NCBI RefSeq assembly: GCF_002158905.1
Contig: NZ_CP021431.1
Location: 248,001 to 312,000, forward strand
Direction: 5' to 3'
Source: Yoonia vestfoldensis
GTDB taxonomy: Bacteria; Pseudomonadota; Alphaproteobacteria; Rhodobacterales; Rhodobacteraceae
DNA: 64,000 nt
Shown piece by piece: positions 14,031 through 23,129 of the stretch. Under the pieces are notes generated by a model. It was not told the DNA's origin. It worked only from the letters and a program-made list of their open reading frames with translations, and did no database searches. The translations under genes were made by a program, and so were the position numbers. Every line of letters starts with the position of its first letter. The first letter of the stretch is position 1.

Positions 14031-15887
14031 CTACTGCCAGTCATCACCGCTGATCTGCATTTTCTTAATTCTTGAATAGAGCGTCGTTGGCTGGATCCCC
14101 AGCAATTGCGCCGCGCCATCCTCGCCTGCGACCTTGCCGCTGGTGCGCCGCAGCGCCGAGATCAGGTTATTGCGCTGCGCGGCGGCCATTTGTGCTTCGG
14201 ACAAGACGGTCAGATCCGGGCCAAGCGCCTGGGGTGGGGCGACAGCCAAGTCGATCTGCAACTTGCCCCCAGTGGATAGAATGCTGCCGCGGTCCATCAC
14301 GTTTTGCAATTCACGCACATTGCCGGGCCAATCATAGGCGACCAGCTTTTCCATTGACAGCTTGGAGACGACGGGCGGTTTGATGTTCAGCCGCTTGCAG
14401 GACAGTTTCAGGAAATGTGTGGCCAGCGCGGGGATATCCTCGCGCCGGTCGCGCAGCGGCAGGCAGGTGATCGGAAAGACGTTGAGAAACATCCATAGTT
14501 CCTCGCGAAACCTGCCGCGCCGGGCGAGCGTTTCCAGATTGCGGCGGCTGGCGGCGATGACGCGCAGGTCGATCGCGCGGGCGCGGGAATCGCCAAGCCG
14601 GGTGACGCTCTTTTCCTGCAAAGCATGCAAAAGCCGCCCCTGCAGGTTCAGCGGCAATTCATCCACATCATCCAGAAACAATGTGCCGTTATGGGCCAGT
14701 TCCAGCACCCCCGGTTTATCGCGCAGCGCCCCCGGAAAGGCGCCGCGGATCTGGCCGAACAATTCGGCCTCGATGGCGTCAGTGGTCATTGCGCTGCATT
14801 TGAAATGGATCAACGAGCGCCTGCGCCGCGGGCTGCCCTTGTGAATGGCAGAGGCCACAAGCGCTTTGCCGGTGCCCGCCTCGCCAGAGATAAGAACCGA
14901 TGCTTCGGTCCCCGCGACAAGGTCGATCTTGCTAAGCAATTGCAGGATCGCGGGTGAACTGCCGATGATTTCGTGATGCGCGCGTTCGGTGGCGATCGTT
15001 TCCTGCAGATAGGCGTTTTCCTGTTCCAGCTGGTCGCGCAGGGCCTGCACCTGTTCCATCGCATTGCGCAGCTTGCTTTCGTTTTCCTTGCGTTCGGTGA
15101 TGTCGCGAAAGATCACCACCGCCCCCGCAAGCACGTTCTGGTCATAGATCGGGGTCGAGACATATTCGACGCGGATCGGCTTGCCATCCTTGCGCCAAAA
15201 GACTTCATCCTCGATCCGGTTGACCTGTTCAAAGCGGAATGATTGGTAGATCGGGCAATCATGGGCGGGATAGATTTCGCCGCTCAGATGATGATGGTGG
15301 ATCATCGAATGGATGTCGCGGCCCAGCAGGTCTTGCGCGCTCCAGCCCAGCATTTCGCGGGCGGCGCGGTTGACGAAGGTGGTCTTGCCATCGGCATTGA
15401 CGCCATAGATGCCTTCGCCCGCGGCATTCAGGATCAGCTGGTTCTGGCGTTCCAATTCGCTGAAAAACGCCTGCGCACGCTGCCATTCCAGCAGGCCAAG
15501 GCGCTGCACCTCGCTGGCCTCGGCGATCTGGTCGTGGCGGGACATCTCATTCAGGTCGATCAGGGTCAGCATGACCATATGCGCGCCCTGACCGATCAGC
15601 GTGCCGCGCAATTCGCACGACAAGGGCAATTGGTCACTGTCCTGCAAGGGAATGTCGCGCCGCCATGCGCGATGACGATGCGCCACCTCGTCCAGAAACA
15701 CGACAAAGCCTGCGAAATTCCCCGCGATATGGGGCGCAAAGCGAAAACCATGGTCTTGTGGTTGGGTGAACAGGCGCATGGCCAGCCGGTTCGCCGCGAC
15801 CACAACATCGCGTTCGGTATCCAGCACCAAGGCGGCATGCGGCACCGCCTCGAGCAGCGAATCAAGTCCAAGCGTGGGTATATCCAT
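14031..15887 (-). CDS. PAS-AAA+-Fis transcriptional regulator with degenerate sigma54 motifs
   Basis: This 618-residue protein has the layout of a bacterial enhancer-binding protein: a divergent N-terminal sensor (1-115), a PAS domain (about 148-265), a coiled coil (265-300), an AAA+ domain (305-545) and a Fis-type HTH (587-612). Key residues are altered: GAFPGA (382-387) replaces the sigma54-binding GAFTGA, Walker A reads GEAGTGKA, Walker B is LFLDD rather than LFLDE, and the usual arginine of the YYRLNV segment is Phe467. It may therefore act without sigma54, like Rhodobacter capsulatus NtrC. It is divergent from the cyanate operon and is its likely regulator. Confidence 0.88.
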   Translation of the reverse strand: MDIPTLGLDSLLEAVPHAALVLDTERDVVVAANRLAMRLFTQPQDHGFRFAPHIAGNFAGFVVFLDEVAHRHRAWRRDIPLQDSDQLPLSCELRGTLIGQGAHMVMLTLIDLNEMSRHDQIAEASEVQRLGLLEWQRAQAFFSELERQNQLILNAAGEGIYGVNADGKTTFVNRAAREMLGWSAQDLLGRDIHSMIHHHHLSGEIYPAHDCPIYQSFRFEQVNRIEDEVFWRKDGKPIRVEYVSTPIYDQNVLAGAVVIFRDITERKENESKLRNAMEQVQALRDQLEQENAYLQETIATERAHHEIIGSSPAILQLLSKIDLVAGTEASVLISGEAGTGKALVASAIHKGSPRRRRSLIHFKCSAMTTDAIEAELFGQIRGAFPGALRDKPGVLELAHNGTLFLDDVDELPLNLQGRLLHALQEKSVTRLGDSRARAIDLRVIAASRRNLETLARRGRFREELWMFLNVFPITCLPLRDRREDIPALATHFLKLSCKRLNIKPPVVSKLSMEKLVAYDWPGNVRELQNVMDRGSILSTGGKLQIDLAVAPPQALGPDLTVLSEAQMAAAQRNNLISALRRTSGKVAGEDGAAQLLGIQPTTLYSRIKKMQISGDDWQ

Positions 15888-15924: not shown

Positions 15925-15955
15925 TACGATATTTCGTAAATTATGAAATATCGTA
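15925..15955. promoter_or_regulatory. Perfect 11-bp inverted repeat, candidate operator of the cyanate divergon
   Basis: TACGATATTTC (15925-15935) and GAAATATCGTA (15945-15955) are exact reverse complements separated by 9 bp. The dyad lies 38 bp upstream of the regulator start and 145 bp upstream of the binding-protein start. It is by far the most regular palindrome in this divergent region, and a natural binding site for a dimeric Fis-type HTH regulator. Confidence 0.75.
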
Positions 15956-16003: not shown

Positions 16004-16042
16004 TATAATATGAAAAAACGCAGCGACATATATTTCGCTGCG
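16004..16042. promoter_or_regulatory. -10-like box and 8-bp hairpin in the cyanate operon leader
   Basis: TATAAT stands at 16004-16009 without a good -35 at the usual distance, as expected for an activated promoter. It is followed by CGCAGCGA (16019-16026) and TCGCTGCG (16035-16042), a perfect 8-bp stem with an 8-nt loop. On the minus strand this stem is followed by six U, so it has the form of an intrinsic terminator reading toward the regulator gene; on the plus strand it would be a leader hairpin. Confidence 0.5.
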
Positions 16043-16099
16043 CTGCGGCACGCGTATCCTTGGCCTCAAGTGACCGAATTCACAAAAAAGAGGGACAGC

Positions 16100-17476
16100 A
16101 TGTCGAATAAAAGCCTTGGAAATCCGTTCTCGCACAAGACCGATCTCAGACATGGCGCAGGATGCGGATGTGACAGCTGTGCGGCGGATAAACACGCCTC
16201 TGCCGAAGCGCCCACCACAAGCGAGGCCATGCTGGAACGCGCGGTCGAAAGCGCGATTGTCCGGTCCGTGTTCGGACATAACGACATCAGCCGCCGGTCG
16301 ATGATGGGCATGCTGGGTGGTGGGGCCTTTGCGGCCGCGCTCGCCTCGGTCTTTCCGATGGATCAGGCCAAGGCGATGATCCTTGACGAACTCGGCCCCC
16401 CGGAAAAGCCCGATCTGCGGGTGGGTTTCGTGGCCATCACCTGTGCCACGCCGATCATCATGGCCGAACCGATGGGGTTCTACAGCCGCTATGGCCTGAA
16501 CGTCGAAGTCGTCAAAACCGCTGGCTGGGCCGTGGCGCGCGACATGTCGCTGTCGGGCGAATATGATGCCAGCCATATGCTGACGCCGATGCCTTTGGCG
16601 ATGACGCTGGGCGCGGGGTCGACGGCGACGCCCTACATCATGCCCGCGGTCGAAAACATCAACGGCCAGGCCATCGTGCTGTCAAACGAACATCTGGACA
16701 AGCGCGATCCGCAGCAATGGAAGGGCATGACCTTTGGCGTGCCGTTCGAATATTCCATGCATAACTTTCTGCTGCGCTATTACGTGGCCGAACATGGGCT
16801 GGACCCCGATCAGGATATCCAGATCCGCGTGGTGCCGCCGCCTGAAATGGTCGCCAACCTGCGGGCAGGAAATCTGGATGGCTATCTGTCCCCCGACCCG
16901 TTCAACCAGCGCGCCGTCTGGGAAGGCATTGGTTTCATCCACATGCTGACCAAGGATATCTGGGAAGGCCATCCTTGCTGCGCCTTCGCCGCGCCGCGCA
17001 AGTTTGCAACGGAAATGCCCAATACCTATGGCGCGCTGCTGAAATCCATCATTGACGCGACGCAATATGCCTCGAACCCTGATAATCGTGTCGAGATTTC
17101 GGCCGCGATTGCGCCGACCAATTACCTGAACCAGCCTGTCGAGGTGATCCAGCAGGTGCTGACCGGCACCTATGCCGACGGTCTGGGCAATGTGCAGCGC
17201 GTGCCTGACCGGATCGATTTCGACCCGTTCCCGTGGCAGTCGATGGGGGTCTGGATTCTGACCCAGATGAAACGCTGGGGCTATATCGAGGGCGATGTCG
17301 ATTACAAAGCGATTGCCGAACAGGTCTATCTGGCCTCTGACGCGCGCAAGGTGATGACCGACCTGGGCTATGACGCGCCAGAGGTGAATTACAAATCCCA
17401 CATGATCATGGGCAAAACCTTTGATCCCGACCAACCCGAGGCTTACGTCGACAGCTTCGCGATCAAGCGGGGTTGA
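16100..17476 (+). CDS. cynA: CmpA/NrtA-family ABC binding protein, probably cyanate (Tat-exported)
   Basis: A 458-residue binding protein of the nitrate/bicarbonate/cyanate/taurine group. Start 16100 is chosen because AGAGGGA precedes it; the frame is open 30 codons further up. The N-terminus has a cysteine-rich segment HGAGCGCDSC (C22, C24, C27) ahead of a twin-arginine signal (SRRSMMGMLGGG, R65-R66), so it is probably exported folded by Tat. The mature domain begins KPDLRVGFVAITCATPIIMAEP. Assignment to cyanate rather than nitrate rests on cyanase at the end of the same operon. Confidence 0.85.
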   Translation: MSNKSLGNPFSHKTDLRHGAGCGCDSCAADKHASAEAPTTSEAMLERAVESAIVRSVFGHNDISRRSMMGMLGGGAFAAALASVFPMDQAKAMILDELGPPEKPDLRVGFVAITCATPIIMAEPMGFYSRYGLNVEVVKTAGWAVARDMSLSGEYDASHMLTPMPLAMTLGAGSTATPYIMPAVENINGQAIVLSNEHLDKRDPQQWKGMTFGVPFEYSMHNFLLRYYVAEHGLDPDQDIQIRVVPPPEMVANLRAGNLDGYLSPDPFNQRAVWEGIGFIHMLTKDIWEGHPCCAFAAPRKFATEMPNTYGALLKSIIDATQYASNPDNRVEISAAIAPTNYLNQPVEVIQQVLTGTYADGLGNVQRVPDRIDFDPFPWQSMGVWILTQMKRWGYIEGDVDYKAIAEQVYLASDARKVMTDLGYDAPEVNYKSHMIMGKTFDPDQPEAYVDSFAIKRG

Positions 17477-18312
17477 TGATGCGGACCCTGTCCCTGAATG
17501 CGCGCGCCGCGATCCTGTCTGCTGTGCTATTGGTGGTCTTTCTTGGCGCATGGGAGGCATCGGTCACCCGGCAAGTCATGGGCGAGGCCCTGACCGAATA
17601 TGACATTCTGATGGGGGTCGGCCAGCCGCGCGCTGCCGTGCCGCCGCCCAGCGATGTTCTGGTCAAGGCATGGGAACAGCTTAGCGATCCATTCTATGAT
17701 GCCGGTCCCAATGATAAAGGGATCGGTATCCAGCTGGCCTATTCGGTCGGTCGCGTGCTGTCGGGGTTCGGGCTGGCCGTGATGGTCGCCCTGCCGCTGG
17801 GGTTCCTGATCGGCATGTCGCCTGTCGCCTATAAGGCGCTGAACCCGTTCATTCAGGTGTTACGCCCGATTTCACCCCTGGCATGGATGCCACTGGCTTT
17901 GTTCATCATCCAGGATGCCAATGCCAGTGCGGTTTTCGTGATCTTCATCTGTTCGATCTGGCCGATGCTGCTGAACACCGCCTTTGGCGTCGCGGGCGTC
18001 CGGCAGGATTGGGTCAATGTCGCGCGCACGCATGAACTGGGCAGCTTGCGCACGGCTTTCACCGTGATCCTGCCAGCCGCAGCACCCACCATCCTGACCG
18101 GGATGCGCATTTCCATCGGCATCGCCTGGCTGGTGATCGTCGCGGCCGAGATGCTCGTGGGGGGGACAGGCATTGGCTATTACGTCTGGAACGAATGGAA
18201 CAACCTCGATCTGACCTCGGTCATCTTTTCGATCCTGATGATCGGGCTTGTGGGCATGTTGCTGGATGCGTTTTTCGCCGCATTGCAACGCGCCGTCACC
18301 TATGCCGAATGA
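17476..18312 (+). CDS. cynB: ABC permease, nitrate/cyanate type
   Basis: A 278-residue inner-membrane permease of the NrtB/SsuC/TauC family with about six helices and the EAA-like coupling loop NVARTHELGSLRTAFTVILP. The ATG at 17476 overlaps the stop of the binding-protein gene (TGATG); a second ATG follows at 17479. The periplasmic loop after helix 1 is long (about 55 residues). With the ATPase encoded 12 bp downstream it would form the membrane part of the cyanate importer. Confidence 0.88.
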   Translation: MMRTLSLNARAAILSAVLLVVFLGAWEASVTRQVMGEALTEYDILMGVGQPRAAVPPPSDVLVKAWEQLSDPFYDAGPNDKGIGIQLAYSVGRVLSGFGLAVMVALPLGFLIGMSPVAYKALNPFIQVLRPISPLAWMPLALFIIQDANASAVFVIFICSIWPMLLNTAFGVAGVRQDWVNVARTHELGSLRTAFTVILPAAAPTILTGMRISIGIAWLVIVAAEMLVGGTGIGYYVWNEWNNLDLTSVIFSILMIGLVGMLLDAFFAALQRAVTYAE

Positions 18313-18324
18313 AAGGCCGCTATC

Positions 18325-19236
18325 ATGAGCAAACATTTCCTGAGTATCGAACGGCTGACCCAGACCTTCCCCGACGGGGCAGGCGGCACGCTGACAGTGT
18401 TTGAAAACGCAAGCTTCGGCATCGACAAGGGCGAATTCGTCTGCATCCTTGGCCATTCGGGCTGCGGCAAATCCACCATCATGAATGTGCTGGCGGGCCT
18501 GGCCGAACCCACATCCGGCGTGGTCAAGATGGACGGTTTCGAAGTCGCAGGCCCCAGCCTTGACCGTGGGGTCGTGTTCCAGAACTATTCGCTGCTGCCA
18601 TGGCTGTCGGCGCTGAAAAACGTGACCTTCGGCGTCAAGGCGCGGTATCGCGACTGGTCGCAGGATAAGGTCGTGGACCATGCCACCAAATATCTGGCCA
18701 TGGTCGGTCTGGAAGGCGACGTCATCCACCGCAAACCCAGCCAGTTGTCGGGCGGCATGCGCCAGCGCGTGTCCATCGCGCGGGCCTTTGCCAACCAGCC
18801 CAAATTGCTGCTGCTGGATGAACCTTTCGGCGCGCTGGATGCCCTGACGCGCGGCACCATTCAGGAAGAATTGCTGAAAGTCTGGAGCCAGACCGAACAG
18901 ACCGTGTTCATGATCACCCATGACATCGACGAAGCGATCCTGCTGGCCGACCGTATCCTGTTGATGACGAACGGCCCTTTTGCACGCGTCGCGGAATCGG
19001 TGGAAATCACCATCCCGCGCCCAAGGGTGCGCACCGATATCGTGAACCACCCCAATTATTACGCGATCCGCAACCATCTGGTGCAGTTCCTTGGCAAGCG
19101 ATCAAAAGAACTCGCAGGCCAGCAATCAGATGGTGCAACCCAAAGCCCAGCACCCGTGCGCATCGATATGACCCAGCCCGCAGCTGACGCAGATCCAAAA
19201 CCCGGCCCTTCCCGTCTTCAGGCGGTCAACGGCTGA
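18325..19236 (+). CDS. cynD: ABC ATPase, nitrate/cyanate type
   Basis: This 303-residue ATPase has Walker A GHSGCGKST, signature LSGGMRQRV, Walker B LLLLDEPFGALD and the H-loop THDIDEA, with the closest pattern in NrtD/CmpD/CynD proteins. The last 45 residues or so form a proline- and alanine-rich tail beyond the usual domain; it lacks the extra CmpA-like regulatory domain of NrtC. It lies between the permease and cyanase genes in one operon. Confidence 0.9.
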   Translation: MSKHFLSIERLTQTFPDGAGGTLTVFENASFGIDKGEFVCILGHSGCGKSTIMNVLAGLAEPTSGVVKMDGFEVAGPSLDRGVVFQNYSLLPWLSALKNVTFGVKARYRDWSQDKVVDHATKYLAMVGLEGDVIHRKPSQLSGGMRQRVSIARAFANQPKLLLLDEPFGALDALTRGTIQEELLKVWSQTEQTVFMITHDIDEAILLADRILLMTNGPFARVAESVEITIPRPRVRTDIVNHPNYYAIRNHLVQFLGKRSKELAGQQSDGATQSPAPVRIDMTQPAADADPKPGPSRLQAVNG

Positions 19237-19266: not shown

Positions 19267-19740
19267 ATGATGAAAGACCTGATTACCGCCGCCGAGATGC
19301 TGACAAAGGAAGATGTCACCAGCCTGATCCTGCTTGCGAAAAAGCGCAAGAAACTGACCTGGGACGCCATCGCCCAAGGGATCGGCCTGTCGCCGGTGTT
19401 CACCCATTCCGCCTGCATGGGCATGAACGCCATGCCCGCTGACAAGGCTGCTGCGCTTGTCGCCTTTCTGGACCTGCCCGCCGAGGCGCAGGACGTGCTG
19501 GAGGAATACCCCACCAAGATCTGGGAACAGGCCGTGCCGACGGACCCCTGCATCTATCGCCTGTATGAAATTGTCGGCGTTTACGGCCCGACCATGAAGG
19601 CGCTTATTCAAGAAGAATTCGGCAATGGGATCATGTCTGCCATCGACTTTGACATGGTCATCAGCCGCGTCCCCAGCCCCAAAGGCGACCGGGTAAAGGT
19701 CGAGATGTCGGGCAAATTCCTCGCCTACGCCAATTGGTGA
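19267..19740 (+). CDS. cynS: Cyanase, cyanate hydratase (EC 4.2.1.104)
   Basis: Cyanase converts cyanate and bicarbonate to ammonia and CO2 (through carbamate), giving the cell nitrogen and detoxifying cyanate. The 157-residue product has all three catalytic residues of the E. coli enzyme: Arg98 and Glu101 in IYRLYE, Ser124 in GIMSAIDF. The N-terminal helical domain and the C-terminal dimer arm (DGKYLP-like GKFLAY) are intact. AAGG lies 6 bases before the first of two tandem ATGs. As the last gene of the operon it defines the role of the upstream importer. Confidence 0.96.
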   Translation: MMKDLITAAEMLTKEDVTSLILLAKKRKKLTWDAIAQGIGLSPVFTHSACMGMNAMPADKAAALVAFLDLPAEAQDVLEEYPTKIWEQAVPTDPCIYRLYEIVGVYGPTMKALIQEEFGNGIMSAIDFDMVISRVPSPKGDRVKVEMSGKFLAYANW

Positions 19741-19995: not shown

Positions 19996-20997
19996 ATGAA
20001 ATATATCAAAACAGCAGTTTTTTCCACAATGATGGCGGTCGGCATGGCCAGCGCATCTTTCGCGCAGGACTTGGAGTTCTTTACAATCGGCACCGGCGGC
20101 ACGGCGGCCACCTATTATCCCGTGGGCGGTGTGATCGCCAATGCGATTTCCAACCCACCAGGGTCGCGCGGCTGCGATGAAGGTGGCAGCTGCGGCGTGC
20201 CTGGCCTGATCGCCTCGGCCGTGTCGTCGCGCGGATCGGTTGATAACGTCAACGCGATCACATCTGGTTTGCGAAACTCGGGTTTTGCCCAGTCTGACGT
20301 GGCGTACTGGGCTTACACAGGCACCGGCACCATGGAAGGTCAGGCGCCAGCGGAAAATCTGCGCGCGATCGCGGCCCTGTTCCCAGAGCATATCCACCTT
20401 GTCGTTCTGGCCGATAGCGGCATCGATTCGGTCAATGATCTCGAAGGCAAACGCGTTTCGCTTGATGAGCCCGGATCGGGGACATATGTCGATGCCAACC
20501 TGATCCTTGAAGCCTATGGTCTGTCCAACGAAATGGTGACGGCCGAAGCGCTGAAGCCTGATGCAGCCGGTGACGCGCTGCGCAATGGCCAGATCGATGC
20601 CTTCTTCTTTGTCGGTGGCTATCCAACCGGTGCGATTGTCGAACTCGCCTCGGCGGTCGATATCAAACTGGTGCCGATTGATGGTGACGGCGCTGCTGGC
20701 CTGACCGAGGAATACGGGTTCTTCTCTGTCTCGGACATTCCCGATGGGGCCTATGACGGTGTCGCCGCGACAACAACCGTTGCTGTGGGCGCGCAGTGGA
20801 TCACCTCTGCCGAGCAGGATGAAGAGCTGATCTATCAGATCACCGCTGCCTTGTGGAATGACAAGACCCGCGTGTTGCTGGATGTTGGCCACGCCAAAGG
20901 TGCCTCGATCAACAAGGACACTGCGCTGGACGGTATCGGCATTCCGCTGCACCCCGGTGCCGAACGTTTCTACCGCGAAGCCGGTTTGTTGGACTAA
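19996..20997 (+). CDS. TAXI-family TRAP transporter solute-binding protein
   Basis: A 333-residue periplasmic binding protein of the TAXI type (TRAP-associated extracytoplasmic immunogenic), with a 23-residue signal peptide ending SFA|QDL. Typical marks are FTIGTGGTAATYYPVGGVIAN near the start and LDEPGSGTYVDANLIL in the middle. TAXI proteins bind small anions such as glutamate or dicarboxylates and deliver them to a sodium-driven permease, here encoded by the next gene. A strong terminator between the two would make this protein more abundant than the permease. Confidence 0.93.
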   Translation: MKYIKTAVFSTMMAVGMASASFAQDLEFFTIGTGGTAATYYPVGGVIANAISNPPGSRGCDEGGSCGVPGLIASAVSSRGSVDNVNAITSGLRNSGFAQSDVAYWAYTGTGTMEGQAPAENLRAIAALFPEHIHLVVLADSGIDSVNDLEGKRVSLDEPGSGTYVDANLILEAYGLSNEMVTAEALKPDAAGDALRNGQIDAFFFVGGYPTGAIVELASAVDIKLVPIDGDGAAGLTEEYGFFSVSDIPDGAYDGVAATTTVAVGAQWITSAEQDEELIYQITAALWNDKTRVLLDVGHAKGASINKDTALDGIGIPLHPGAERFYREAGLLD

Positions 20998-21016
20998 GCT
21001 TTCACACATAACGACG

Positions 21017-21049
21017 GGCGGCCCTGATCATGCGGGGCCGCCTTTTTTT
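21017..21049 (+). terminator. Rho-independent terminator between TRAP binding-protein and permease genes
   Basis: GGCGGCCC and GGGCCGCC form an 8-bp GC stem with a 10-nt loop, followed by seven T (21043-21049). It begins 19 bp after the binding-protein stop and 67 bp before the permease start, both genes being on the plus strand. It should act as a partial terminator that sets the ratio of the two proteins. Confidence 0.9.
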
Positions 21050-21083
21050 GTGGCGCCCCATTGCCACCACAAGGACAGTCCCG

Positions 21084-23129
21084 ATGAAGACCACAGAACT
21101 CACTGCCGCCGAACTGGCCGAGATCGAGCGTAAATATGATCCCGAGACGGCATTTCGCGCGACAGGGTGGTATCTGGGTGTCGTTGTATCGGCTTTGCTT
21201 GTGGCAATGTCGGTTTACCATTTCTACGCGTCAGGCTTTGCGCTGATCCCAGAGCTGATGCACCGTGGCATTCACATCTCATTTGTTCTGGGTTTGGTTT
21301 TCATCCTCTTTGGCTGGCGTAAAGCGCCGACAACACAGGTGGCCCCAGCGCGCTGGTGGCGCTTTCAGGGCGTGCCTTATCTTGACCTGCTTTGGGCTGT
21401 TCTGGCGATATCCGCCGCGATGTATCTGCCGCTGCTGCCGCCGGAAATCGTTGCGCAGCGCGTGGGCAATCCCAACCAGACGGATATTTTCATGGGCACG
21501 GCGCTGCTGCTGCTGACGCTCGAGGCTGCGCGGCGCTCTGTCGGGCCGACATTGCCGATTATCGGCATCGTTTTTATCCTGTTTGCGCTTTTCGGCCCCT
21601 ATGCTCCGGGTGCGTTGAAACATGGCGGCACAAGCTGGCTGGGATTGATCAACCATCTTTATATGACCAATCAGGGCATCTACGGGATCGCCATCGGGGT
21701 CATGGCGAAATATGTCTTCTTGTTCATCCTGTTCGGCGTGCTTGCGACCCGCATCGGGTTGGGGCAGCTTTTTATCGACCTCGCGATGGTGATCGCTGGG
21801 CGCTATGCGGGCGGCCCTGCAAAAGTGGCCATCTTTTCGTCGGCCTTCATGGGCACGATTTCCGGCTCTTCAATCGCCAACACCGTGACGACAGGCGCTT
21901 TGACGATCCCCGCAATGAAGAAAGTCGGCTATTCGGGCCGTTTCTCTGCCGCGGTAGAGGCCACCTCGTCAACAGGTGGGCAGATTACGCCGCCGATCCT
22001 TGGGGCGGCGGCGTTTATCATGGTCGAATATCTGGAAATCCCGCTGCGCGACATTCTGGCCGCGGCACTGTTTCCGGCGCTGCTGCATTATTTCGGCATT
22101 TTCATCATGGTGCATCTCGAGGCAAAGCGGCTTGGTCTGCGTGGCCTGACTGCCGAGGAAATGCCCAAGCTGGGGCTGGTTCTGAAACAGCATTGGCTGT
22201 CTGTCATCCCGCTGATCATTCTGGTTTACATGATCCTTGCCGGGCGGACGCCCGATTATGCCGCTGTCTATGGCATCATCGCTTGTGTCGTGGTCGGTGT
22301 GTTGAACCCGGTCAACCGGCTGACCCTGTTGGATTTTTGGAATGCGCTGGCTGACGGTGCCAAAAACACGCTTGCGGTCGGGGCTGCGGCCGCCACCGTG
22401 GGGATCGTGGTCGGTGTTGTGACATTGACCGGCGTTGGCTTTCGGCTTGGCTATGTGGTGGTGCAGACAGCGTCAGATATGGGCGCTTTCATCGGGCAGA
22501 TCTGGCCGTTCTCGATTGCGACCGTCGCGCAATGGTCGCTGTTTTTGTCACTGGTCCTGATCGCTGTGGCCTGCATCATCATGGGGGCAGGGATCCCGAC
22601 GACAGCCACCTATATCATCCTTGTGGCCGTCGCGGCACCTGCACTGGCCGTGCAGAATATCGAACCCATCGTGGCGCATTTCTTTGTCTTCTATTACGGG
22701 GTGTTGGCGGATATCACGCCGCCTGTCGCGCTTGCCGCTTATGCGGCCGCAGGCATCGCGGGGTCCAATCCGTTCCAGACCGGAAATACCGCCTTCCGTT
22801 TGGGTATCGCCAAGGCGCTGGTGCCTTTTGTCTTTGTCTATTCGCCAGCCTTGTTGCTGGTGGCTGACGGCTTTACCTGGTCCGCCTTCACCATCACGCT
22901 GATCGGCGCGATGCTGGGCATTGCAAGCCTGGGCGTAGCCTTTTCCGGCTATCTGTTGACCACCTTGCGTCTATGGGAACGGTGGTGGGTCGCTGTCGTG
23001 TCATTGCTGTTCATTGCGCCGGGCATTTTGACGATGGGCCTGGGGATCGCGTTGATGTTGCCGATCCTCTTGCTGCAAGTCAGCCGCGCAAAGGCGGTGC
23101 CGCAAGCCAAAGTGCAAAATACCGACTGA
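21084..23129 (+). CDS. TRAP transporter permease, fused small and large subunits (TAXI type)
   Basis: A 681-residue membrane protein joining the 4-helix DctQ-like and the 12-helix DctM-like parts in one chain, as TAXI systems usually do. Marks include SGSSIANTVTTGALTIPAMKK and GAGIPTTATYIILVAVAAPAL, the two re-entrant hairpins of the elevator domain, and TGGQITPPILGAAAFIM. Start 21084 (MKTTELTAAELAEIERKYDP) is chosen by family similarity; the ATG at 21030 lies inside the terminator hairpin. Confidence 0.92.
   Translation: MKTTELTAAELAEIERKYDPETAFRATGWYLGVVVSALLVAMSVYHFYASGFALIPELMHRGIHISFVLGLVFILFGWRKAPTTQVAPARWWRFQGVPYLDLLWAVLAISAAMYLPLLPPEIVAQRVGNPNQTDIFMGTALLLLTLEAARRSVGPTLPIIGIVFILFALFGPYAPGALKHGGTSWLGLINHLYMTNQGIYGIAIGVMAKYVFLFILFGVLATRIGLGQLFIDLAMVIAGRYAGGPAKVAIFSSAFMGTISGSSIANTVTTGALTIPAMKKVGYSGRFSAAVEATSSTGGQITPPILGAAAFIMVEYLEIPLRDILAAALFPALLHYFGIFIMVHLEAKRLGLRGLTAEEMPKLGLVLKQHWLSVIPLIILVYMILAGRTPDYAAVYGIIACVVVGVLNPVNRLTLLDFWNALADGAKNTLAVGAAAATVGIVVGVVTLTGVGFRLGYVVVQTASDMGAFIGQIWPFSIATVAQWSLFLSLVLIAVACIIMGAGIPTTATYIILVAVAAPALAVQNIEPIVAHFFVFYYGVLADITPPVALAAYAAAGIAGSNPFQTGNTAFRLGIAKALVPFVFVYSPALLLVADGFTWSAFTITLIGAMLGIASLGVAFSGYLLTTLRLWERWWVAVVSLLFIAPGILTMGLGIALMLPILLLQVSRAKAVPQAKVQNTD

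Follow-up and report, generated by a model that had tools for sequence, protein, structure and literature searches.

The cyanate locus of Yoonia vestfoldensis raises the question of whether a regulator that has the fold of a bacterial enhancer-binding protein (bEBP) and an altered sigma-54 loop still works with sigma-54, and by which route it might otherwise control its operon. The window, which here means the whole 64,000-nucleotide stretch analysed (positions 248,001 to 312,000 of contig NZ_CP021431.1), contains a gene of PAS-AAA+-Fis architecture that open reading frames and domain profiles place divergent from cynA-cynB-cynD-cynS. This open reading frame, 14031-15887, is CynF, the dedicated regulator of cynABDS. 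Its features and those of its neighbours are given below in window positions.

14031..15887, minus strand: cynF, PAS-AAA+-Fis-type regulator of 618 amino acids, degenerate (D-type); open reading frame with ATG start, Pfam, orthology and tree
15099..15443, minus strand: PAS domain, residues 149-263; Pfam PF00989, highly conserved
14862..14885, minus strand: Walker A, GEAGTGKA, residues 335-342; Lys341 kept, the following Glu changed to Ala
14727..14744, minus strand: L1 loop, GAFPGA in place of GAFTGA, residues 382-387
14667..14681, minus strand: Walker B, LFLDD, residues 403-407
14541..14552, minus strand: sensor I, ASRR in place of ATNR, residues 446-449
14487..14489, minus strand: Phe467 at the second arginine-finger position, aligned to Arg of ZraR
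14061..14159, minus strand: Fis-type helix-turn-helix, residues 577-609; Pfam HTH_8, 19.8 bits, under the cut-off of 22
15926..15954, unstranded: inferred CynF operator, two ACGANNNNTCGT units 17 bp apart; a near-perfect palindrome with 15/16 consensus positions
16100..17476, plus strand: cynA, substrate-binding protein; NCBIfam matches below cut-offs only
17473..18312, plus strand: cynB, ABC permease; TIGR01183 above the curated NCBIfam cut-off
18325..19236, plus strand: cynD, ABC ATP-binding protein; TIGR01184 above the curated NCBIfam cut-off
19267..19740, plus strand: cynS, cyanase; TIGR00673 and PRK02866 above cut-off

The cynA start at 16100 was picked from the spacing in relatives, the longest open reading frame beginning at 16010. 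Right behind cynS, positions 19996-23129 hold genes for an NMT1-like (PF16868) binding protein and a large DctM-type TRAP permease, and anything resembling them lies near cyn in few relatives only. Between the operator and cynA there is a strong hairpin (16017-16044) with a terminator-like score on the minus strand.

In gene order, divergent regulator and domain type the locus resembles cynFABDS of Pseudomonas pseudoalcaligenes CECT5344, where CynF is required for expression of cynABDS and the operon is induced by cyanate, repressed by ammonium and preceded by a putative sigma-54 promoter (PMC6627978). The ACGANNNNTCGT operator unit of the window is also that of Pseudomonas loci related to CECT5344. 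However, these loci retain GAFTGA and every catalytic residue, along with three operator units and a -24/-12 promoter, whereas the branch to which the window belongs does not.

Within the protein, Pfam assigns the PAS domain to residues 149-263, Sigma54_activat to 307-473 (1e-53), AAA_lid_14 to 479-546 and HTH_8 to 577-609. Walker A, Walker B, sensor I and the arginine fingers have well-known roles in AAA+ proteins. When these residues were located in the translation, the motifs named by the sequence-only reading proved correct: GAFPGA, GEAGTGKA, LFLDD and Phe for the second arginine finger. That reading also took the PAS and Fis-type helix-turn-helix regions to be sound, which is slightly overstated for the helix-turn-helix, given its score below the cut-off. 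Phe467, which sits within FREELWMFLNVFPI, and Asp407 replace the second arginine finger and the Walker-B Glu; in the sequence alignment ZraR has Arg opposite Phe467. A notable change in Walker A puts Ala after the P-loop Lys, where 35/35 canonical (C-type) orthologues have Glu, and sensor I is also altered, with ASRR in the window and Asn at that position in 35/35 C-type proteins. An AlphaFold model of CynF has a mean pLDDT of 81.1, with 63 over residues 381-390, where the L1 loop lies, and its top structural matches are NtrX, FlrC, ZraR, FleQ and NtrC1. By profiles, motifs and structure match, CynF has a bEBP AAA+ domain with a defective sigma-54 loop; the GAFTGA sequence of sigma-54-dependent bEBPs is replaced by GAFPGA.

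Such changes might reflect recent decay in one strain, and the survey of orthologues rules this out. A first comparison took the window protein together with the 120 relatives listed best among 4084 matches; among these 121 proteins the fourth GAFTGA position is Thr in 2, Ser in 3 and neither in 116, and the second finger position is Arg in none. A scan of named genomes gave 80 loci, the best 80 of at least 572 relatives; cynA adjoins the regulator in 77 of them, and two of the remaining three have cynS beside it. They divide into 24 canonical and 56 degenerate loci, the former from Pseudomonas, Thalassospira, Methylobacterium, Rhizobium and others, the latter mostly from Rhodobacterales, and in a tree of the 80 loci built without the motif columns one change divides the two (SH-aLRT 99). 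Further genomes with matches were found in the family (13/198), the order (46/390) and the class (19/385), the window's genome being counted in each. From 154 regulators 123 were kept, and 31 that were at least 97% identical to a retained regulator were dropped; also left out were the family match L023, which is not CynF (no cynA, 38-43% identity), and the window copies L011 and L122. L157 is cut by its contig end. Regulators with Arg at the second finger were classed as C-type (n=35) and those without as D-type (n=88), and the latter again form one branch in the 123-regulator tree (SH-aLRT 100), mainly of Rhodobacterales.

All 88 D-type proteins have lost the Glu after the P-loop Lys, and the second arginine finger is lost in 87/87 readable cases. 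Sensor-I Asn is lost in 78 of 87 readable sequences. The decay is uneven: GAFTGA remains intact in 4/88, and the second acid of Walker B is other than Glu in 46/88 and still Glu in 42/88. On these alignments, the losses common to the whole branch are the second arginine finger and the Walker-A Glu, while the loop has drifted in various ways. The P-loop Lys is kept in 88/88 and the first arginine finger in 86/87 readable proteins, which is consistent with nucleotide binding; the residue pattern as a whole would fit ATP binding without hydrolysis. C-type proteins retain the Walker-A Glu, the Walker-B Glu, the sensor-I Asn and both arginine fingers in 35/35 cases, and a loop Thr or Ser in 34/35. 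Homologues at the same locus in Rhodobacteraceae therefore share the losses of the window protein, as expected if these are not recent, and orthologues outside the D branch keep GAFTGA and the catalytic residues. Among pairs with 70-80% PAS identity, the AAA+ domains average an identity of 0.49 in D (1467 pairs) vs 0.83 in C (184 pairs), and the helix-turn-helix regions 0.48 vs 0.53, a pattern which indicates that constraint in D is specifically relaxed within the AAA+ domain.

The DNA between cynF and cynA has changed along with the protein. The intergenic region was readable at all but four of the 123 loci (L051, L062, L065, L096); L083, with an intergenic region of 44 bp, is counted in C as lacking promoter and sites. 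Two ACGANNNNTCGT units 17 bp apart, matching at least 13/16 positions, make up the operator pair, which is present in 84/85 loci of D and 26/34 of C. In 27/34 C loci there is a third unit, 21-23 bp upstream (those without it are L083, L087, L094, L113, L114, L119 and L121); D loci have none (0/85). By weight-matrix score, 32/34 C loci have a -24/-12 sigma-54 site before cynA, the exceptions being L083 and L119, vs 1/85 in D; in 31/34 C loci the site lies 48-82 bp after the operator. The sole D match, at L070, is weak (score 13.4, p 0.004), and no -24/-12 site was found before cynA in the window (score 8.7, p 0.28). Fisher p values for the promoter and third-unit contrasts are about 1e-25 and 1e-20, treating related loci as independent. 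The site scans used shuffles that preserve base composition only, with sigma-54 matrix weights and an IHF consensus taken from general knowledge, and a weight-free rule and an opposite-strand control were added: the weight-free -24/-12 rule finds sites in 32/33 C loci (L119 apart) and 3/85 D loci, and on the opposite strand in 0/34 C and 5/85 D. Judged from the aligned loci, the comparison shows that one and the same branch has degraded or lost the sigma-54 loop, the residues for ATP hydrolysis, the -24/-12 promoter and the third enhancer unit. The D branch is one evolutionary event, and the association of protein with promoter rests on this one change together with L119, which is described below.

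Host genomes point the same way. Sigma-54, detected by its DNA-binding domain at E <1e-30, is present in 13 and missing from 43 of the 56 D host genomes. Of the 43, four have weak PF04552 hits (E 2e-4 to 5e-4) and none matches PF04963, the core-binding domain; G868 is one weak PF04552 case, just at the cut-off with its neighbours, G181 is 86% complete, and in G710, one of the 56 D hosts, the regulator is cut by a contig end. All 18 sampled hosts outside D (17 C hosts and the host of L119) have sigma-54. The order as a whole has it in 44/196 genomes, a frequency similar to that of D hosts, so that sigma-54 loss is not specific to cyn carriers; the order is mostly without sigma-54, and CynF of the D branch fits that. 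The sequence-only reading had proposed that the regulator left sigma-54 control, and this is supported by losses common to the branch, by the missing -24/-12 site and third unit, and by the 43/56 hosts without sigma-54.

It might still be argued that CynF depends on sigma-54 in those hosts that have it, the window's genome included, through an unusual loop and promoter. The 13/56 D hosts with sigma-54, the GAFTGA sequences in 4/88 D proteins and the weak -24/-12 site of L070 speak for this, but the same kind of regulator and operator occurs in the 43/56 hosts without sigma-54, the second arginine finger is lost in every readable D protein, the window has no -24/-12 site, and the rpoN gene of its genome is in a flagellar cluster. 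We regard sigma-54 dependence as highly improbable. The rpoN gene (G000:C1 3409081-3410151, L167) is accompanied by MotB, FlhB, FliG, FliF, FliI-type ATPase and flagellin genes (3420000-3434000, L168), and two activators by the flagellar cluster (L001, L002) keep GAFTGA. Elsewhere on G000:C1, a DctD/PgtA-like regulator (1350830-1351285, L005) is without the GAFTGA loop, as are an NtrX-like (1538155-1538643, L004) and an NtrC-like one (1541952-1542365, L006).

We consider it likely that D-type CynF is a sigma-54-independent, dedicated regulator of cynABDS that acts on housekeeping RNA polymerase. For transcription by sigma-70 holoenzyme the 43/56 D hosts without sigma-54 are indirect support. 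Its route can be sketched from better-known relatives. Rhodobacterales NtrC is without the loop, and in Rhodobacter capsulatus NtrC is reported to use sigma-70, with ATP binding but not hydrolysis being essential (PMC10274813). Both NtrC and D-type CynF thus have a bEBP fold without a working sigma-54 loop, but they belong to different orthologue groups: NtrC is a phosphorylated response regulator with the loop deleted, whereas CynF has a PAS region and has lost the loop mostly by substitution. NorR requires three enhancer sites for the active oligomer and its ATPase activity (PMC2941729); C-type cyn promoters resemble those of NorR in having three dyads, and D-type promoters differ in having two units, which would fit a smaller, non-ring assembly. 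Taken together, PMC6627978, PMC2941729 and PMC10274813 suggest, as the most likely mode for D-type CynF, binding as two dimers and activation of housekeeping polymerase without ATP hydrolysis. Activation would be its inherited role, as Pseudomonas CynF is required for cynABDS expression, and D-type CynF is probably such an activator, although sigma-70 use, stoichiometry and the role of ATP, like activation itself, are predictions from sequence. The PAS region would relay a cyanate or nitrogen signal, and two dimers on the two-unit operator, about 100-130 bp upstream of a weak sigma-70-type cynA promoter, would activate housekeeping RNA polymerase by contact or looping, with ATP bound at most and not hydrolysed, as reported for R. 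capsulatus NtrC. CynF probably also limits its own expression, because the operator is close to its own start codon as well.

This last point bears on the possibility that D-type CynF represses cynABDS, or mainly itself, with cyanate relieving repression and the AAA+ domain serving for oligomerization only. TyrR, a sigma-54-independent relative, is a repressor (PMC3162934), and in 54 D loci the operator starts 34-40 bp (49 in L035) from the cynF start codon, a good position for autorepression. In the same loci, however, 123-220 bp separate the end of the operator from the cynA start, which is far for direct repression of cynA and makes a simple repressor awkward, and the C-type orthologue activates from the same operator (PMC6627978). 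We therefore hold repression to be unlikely and retain activation as the preferred reading.

Several other elements of the D promoters were recorded. No consensus sigma-70 promoter was found by the scan before cynA in the window, and TATAAT at 16004-16009 was dropped as a -10 candidate for want of an acceptable -35. Many D promoters carry CTTTYG-like and CANNAT-like elements 17-19 bp apart shortly before cynA, noted by eye and unscored. An IHF-like site of at least 8/9 follows the operator in 20/85 D loci (about 8% expected), 18 of the 20 at one position; on the other strand such sites also number 20/85 and are scattered, and we treat the site, favoured by its fixed position alone, as a lead and not a claim. 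An operator search of the 3.99-Mb genome of the window, allowing up to 2 mismatches, found no second match to the operator at 15926-15954, so at that stringency a wider CynF regulon is not supported.

At a distance of 56-59 bp behind the operator, 28/85 D loci, against 5% expected, and 2/29 C loci carry an NtrC-like dyad, TGC-N11-GCA at 5/6 or better; L028, L036 and L044 are examples in D. The Paracoccus NtrC consensus at 10/11 gives a small excess (7/85 D, 2/34 C, 1.6% expected), and the dyad resembles the Paracoccus NtrC site (PMC5424462). It is absent from the window and its close relatives, and is a lead that may indicate direct NtrC or nitrogen input in part of D. The dyad at its fixed place could also be read to mean that CynF is a non-functional relic kept by linkage, cynABDS being run by another regulator such as NtrC, and the loss of several catalytic residues and the low AAA+ identity in D would suit such a relic. 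This is scarcely credible: cynF has no internal stop in 80/80 loci (the best 80 of at least 572 relatives), the PAS domain, the P-loop Lys, the divergent position of cynA and the paired operator have been preserved along long branches, and the window and its close relatives do without the dyad.

L119 may offer a view of a conversion that is half complete. It is placed inside the C branch (support 98), in a host of another family with rpoN present and a genome contamination of 10%. Its loop is GAYPGA, every ATPase residue examined is intact, the sigma-54 promoter is missing (score 5.0, p near 1), and the operator pair scores 15/16 with a third unit of only 5/8. In a search for further such genomes the order of L119 comprised only 2, and two relatives in protein databases, known from their protein sequences alone, have GAYPGA and GAFEGA with ATPase residues intact. 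L119 is suggestive, as a single locus, of a separate second loss of the GAFTGA Thr and the sigma-54 promoter. A fuller history can be proposed tentatively, with confidence a little short of even: an ATP-hydrolysing, three-enhancer sigma-54 remodeller would have become a two-site housekeeping activator that binds ATP at most, with protein, promoter and enhancer number changing together once, in an order mostly without rpoN, and with L119 and its two relatives as a second conversion caught halfway, in which the ATPase can outlast the sigma-54 loop and promoter.

Departures from sigma-54 are known among bEBPs and have been described one by one. TyrR, DhaR, HupR, VpsR and an EBP of Jannaschia sp. 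CCS1 are relatives that left sigma-54; the Jannaschia protein, from a genome without sigma-54, carries Glu in place of the GAFTGA Thr, and Pro had already been noted as a preferred residue at this position (all PMC3162934). The operons and sensors of these five differ from those of CynF, and the part of PMC3162934 drawn on describes no orthologous sigma-54 version on the same operon, unlike the case of CynF; the Jannaschia EBP may itself be a candidate CynF. Among the open-licence papers listed for cynF, cyanate, cyanase, bEBP and GAFTGA, titles and abstract openings contained no report of a sigma-54-independent CynF. What is new is that protein, promoter, enhancer number and sigma factor have changed jointly at a single orthologous operon. 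Sigma-54-using and converted CynF share operon and operator, and motifs, promoter, enhancer number and sigma-54 presence can all be read, so that the pair, with its half-way case, makes the move of an enhancer-dependent activator to housekeeping polymerase directly testable by exchange of parts. A further suggestion is that database labels of the kind ‘sigma 54-interacting transcriptional regulator’ are misleading for the D branch. The hosts of CynF are mostly marine bacteria, and two D-type proteins from hosts outside Rhodobacterales, Oricola indica (L060) and Roseibium sp. MMSF_3544 (L072), lie deep within D, a placement that suggests transfer of the converted cyn cluster.
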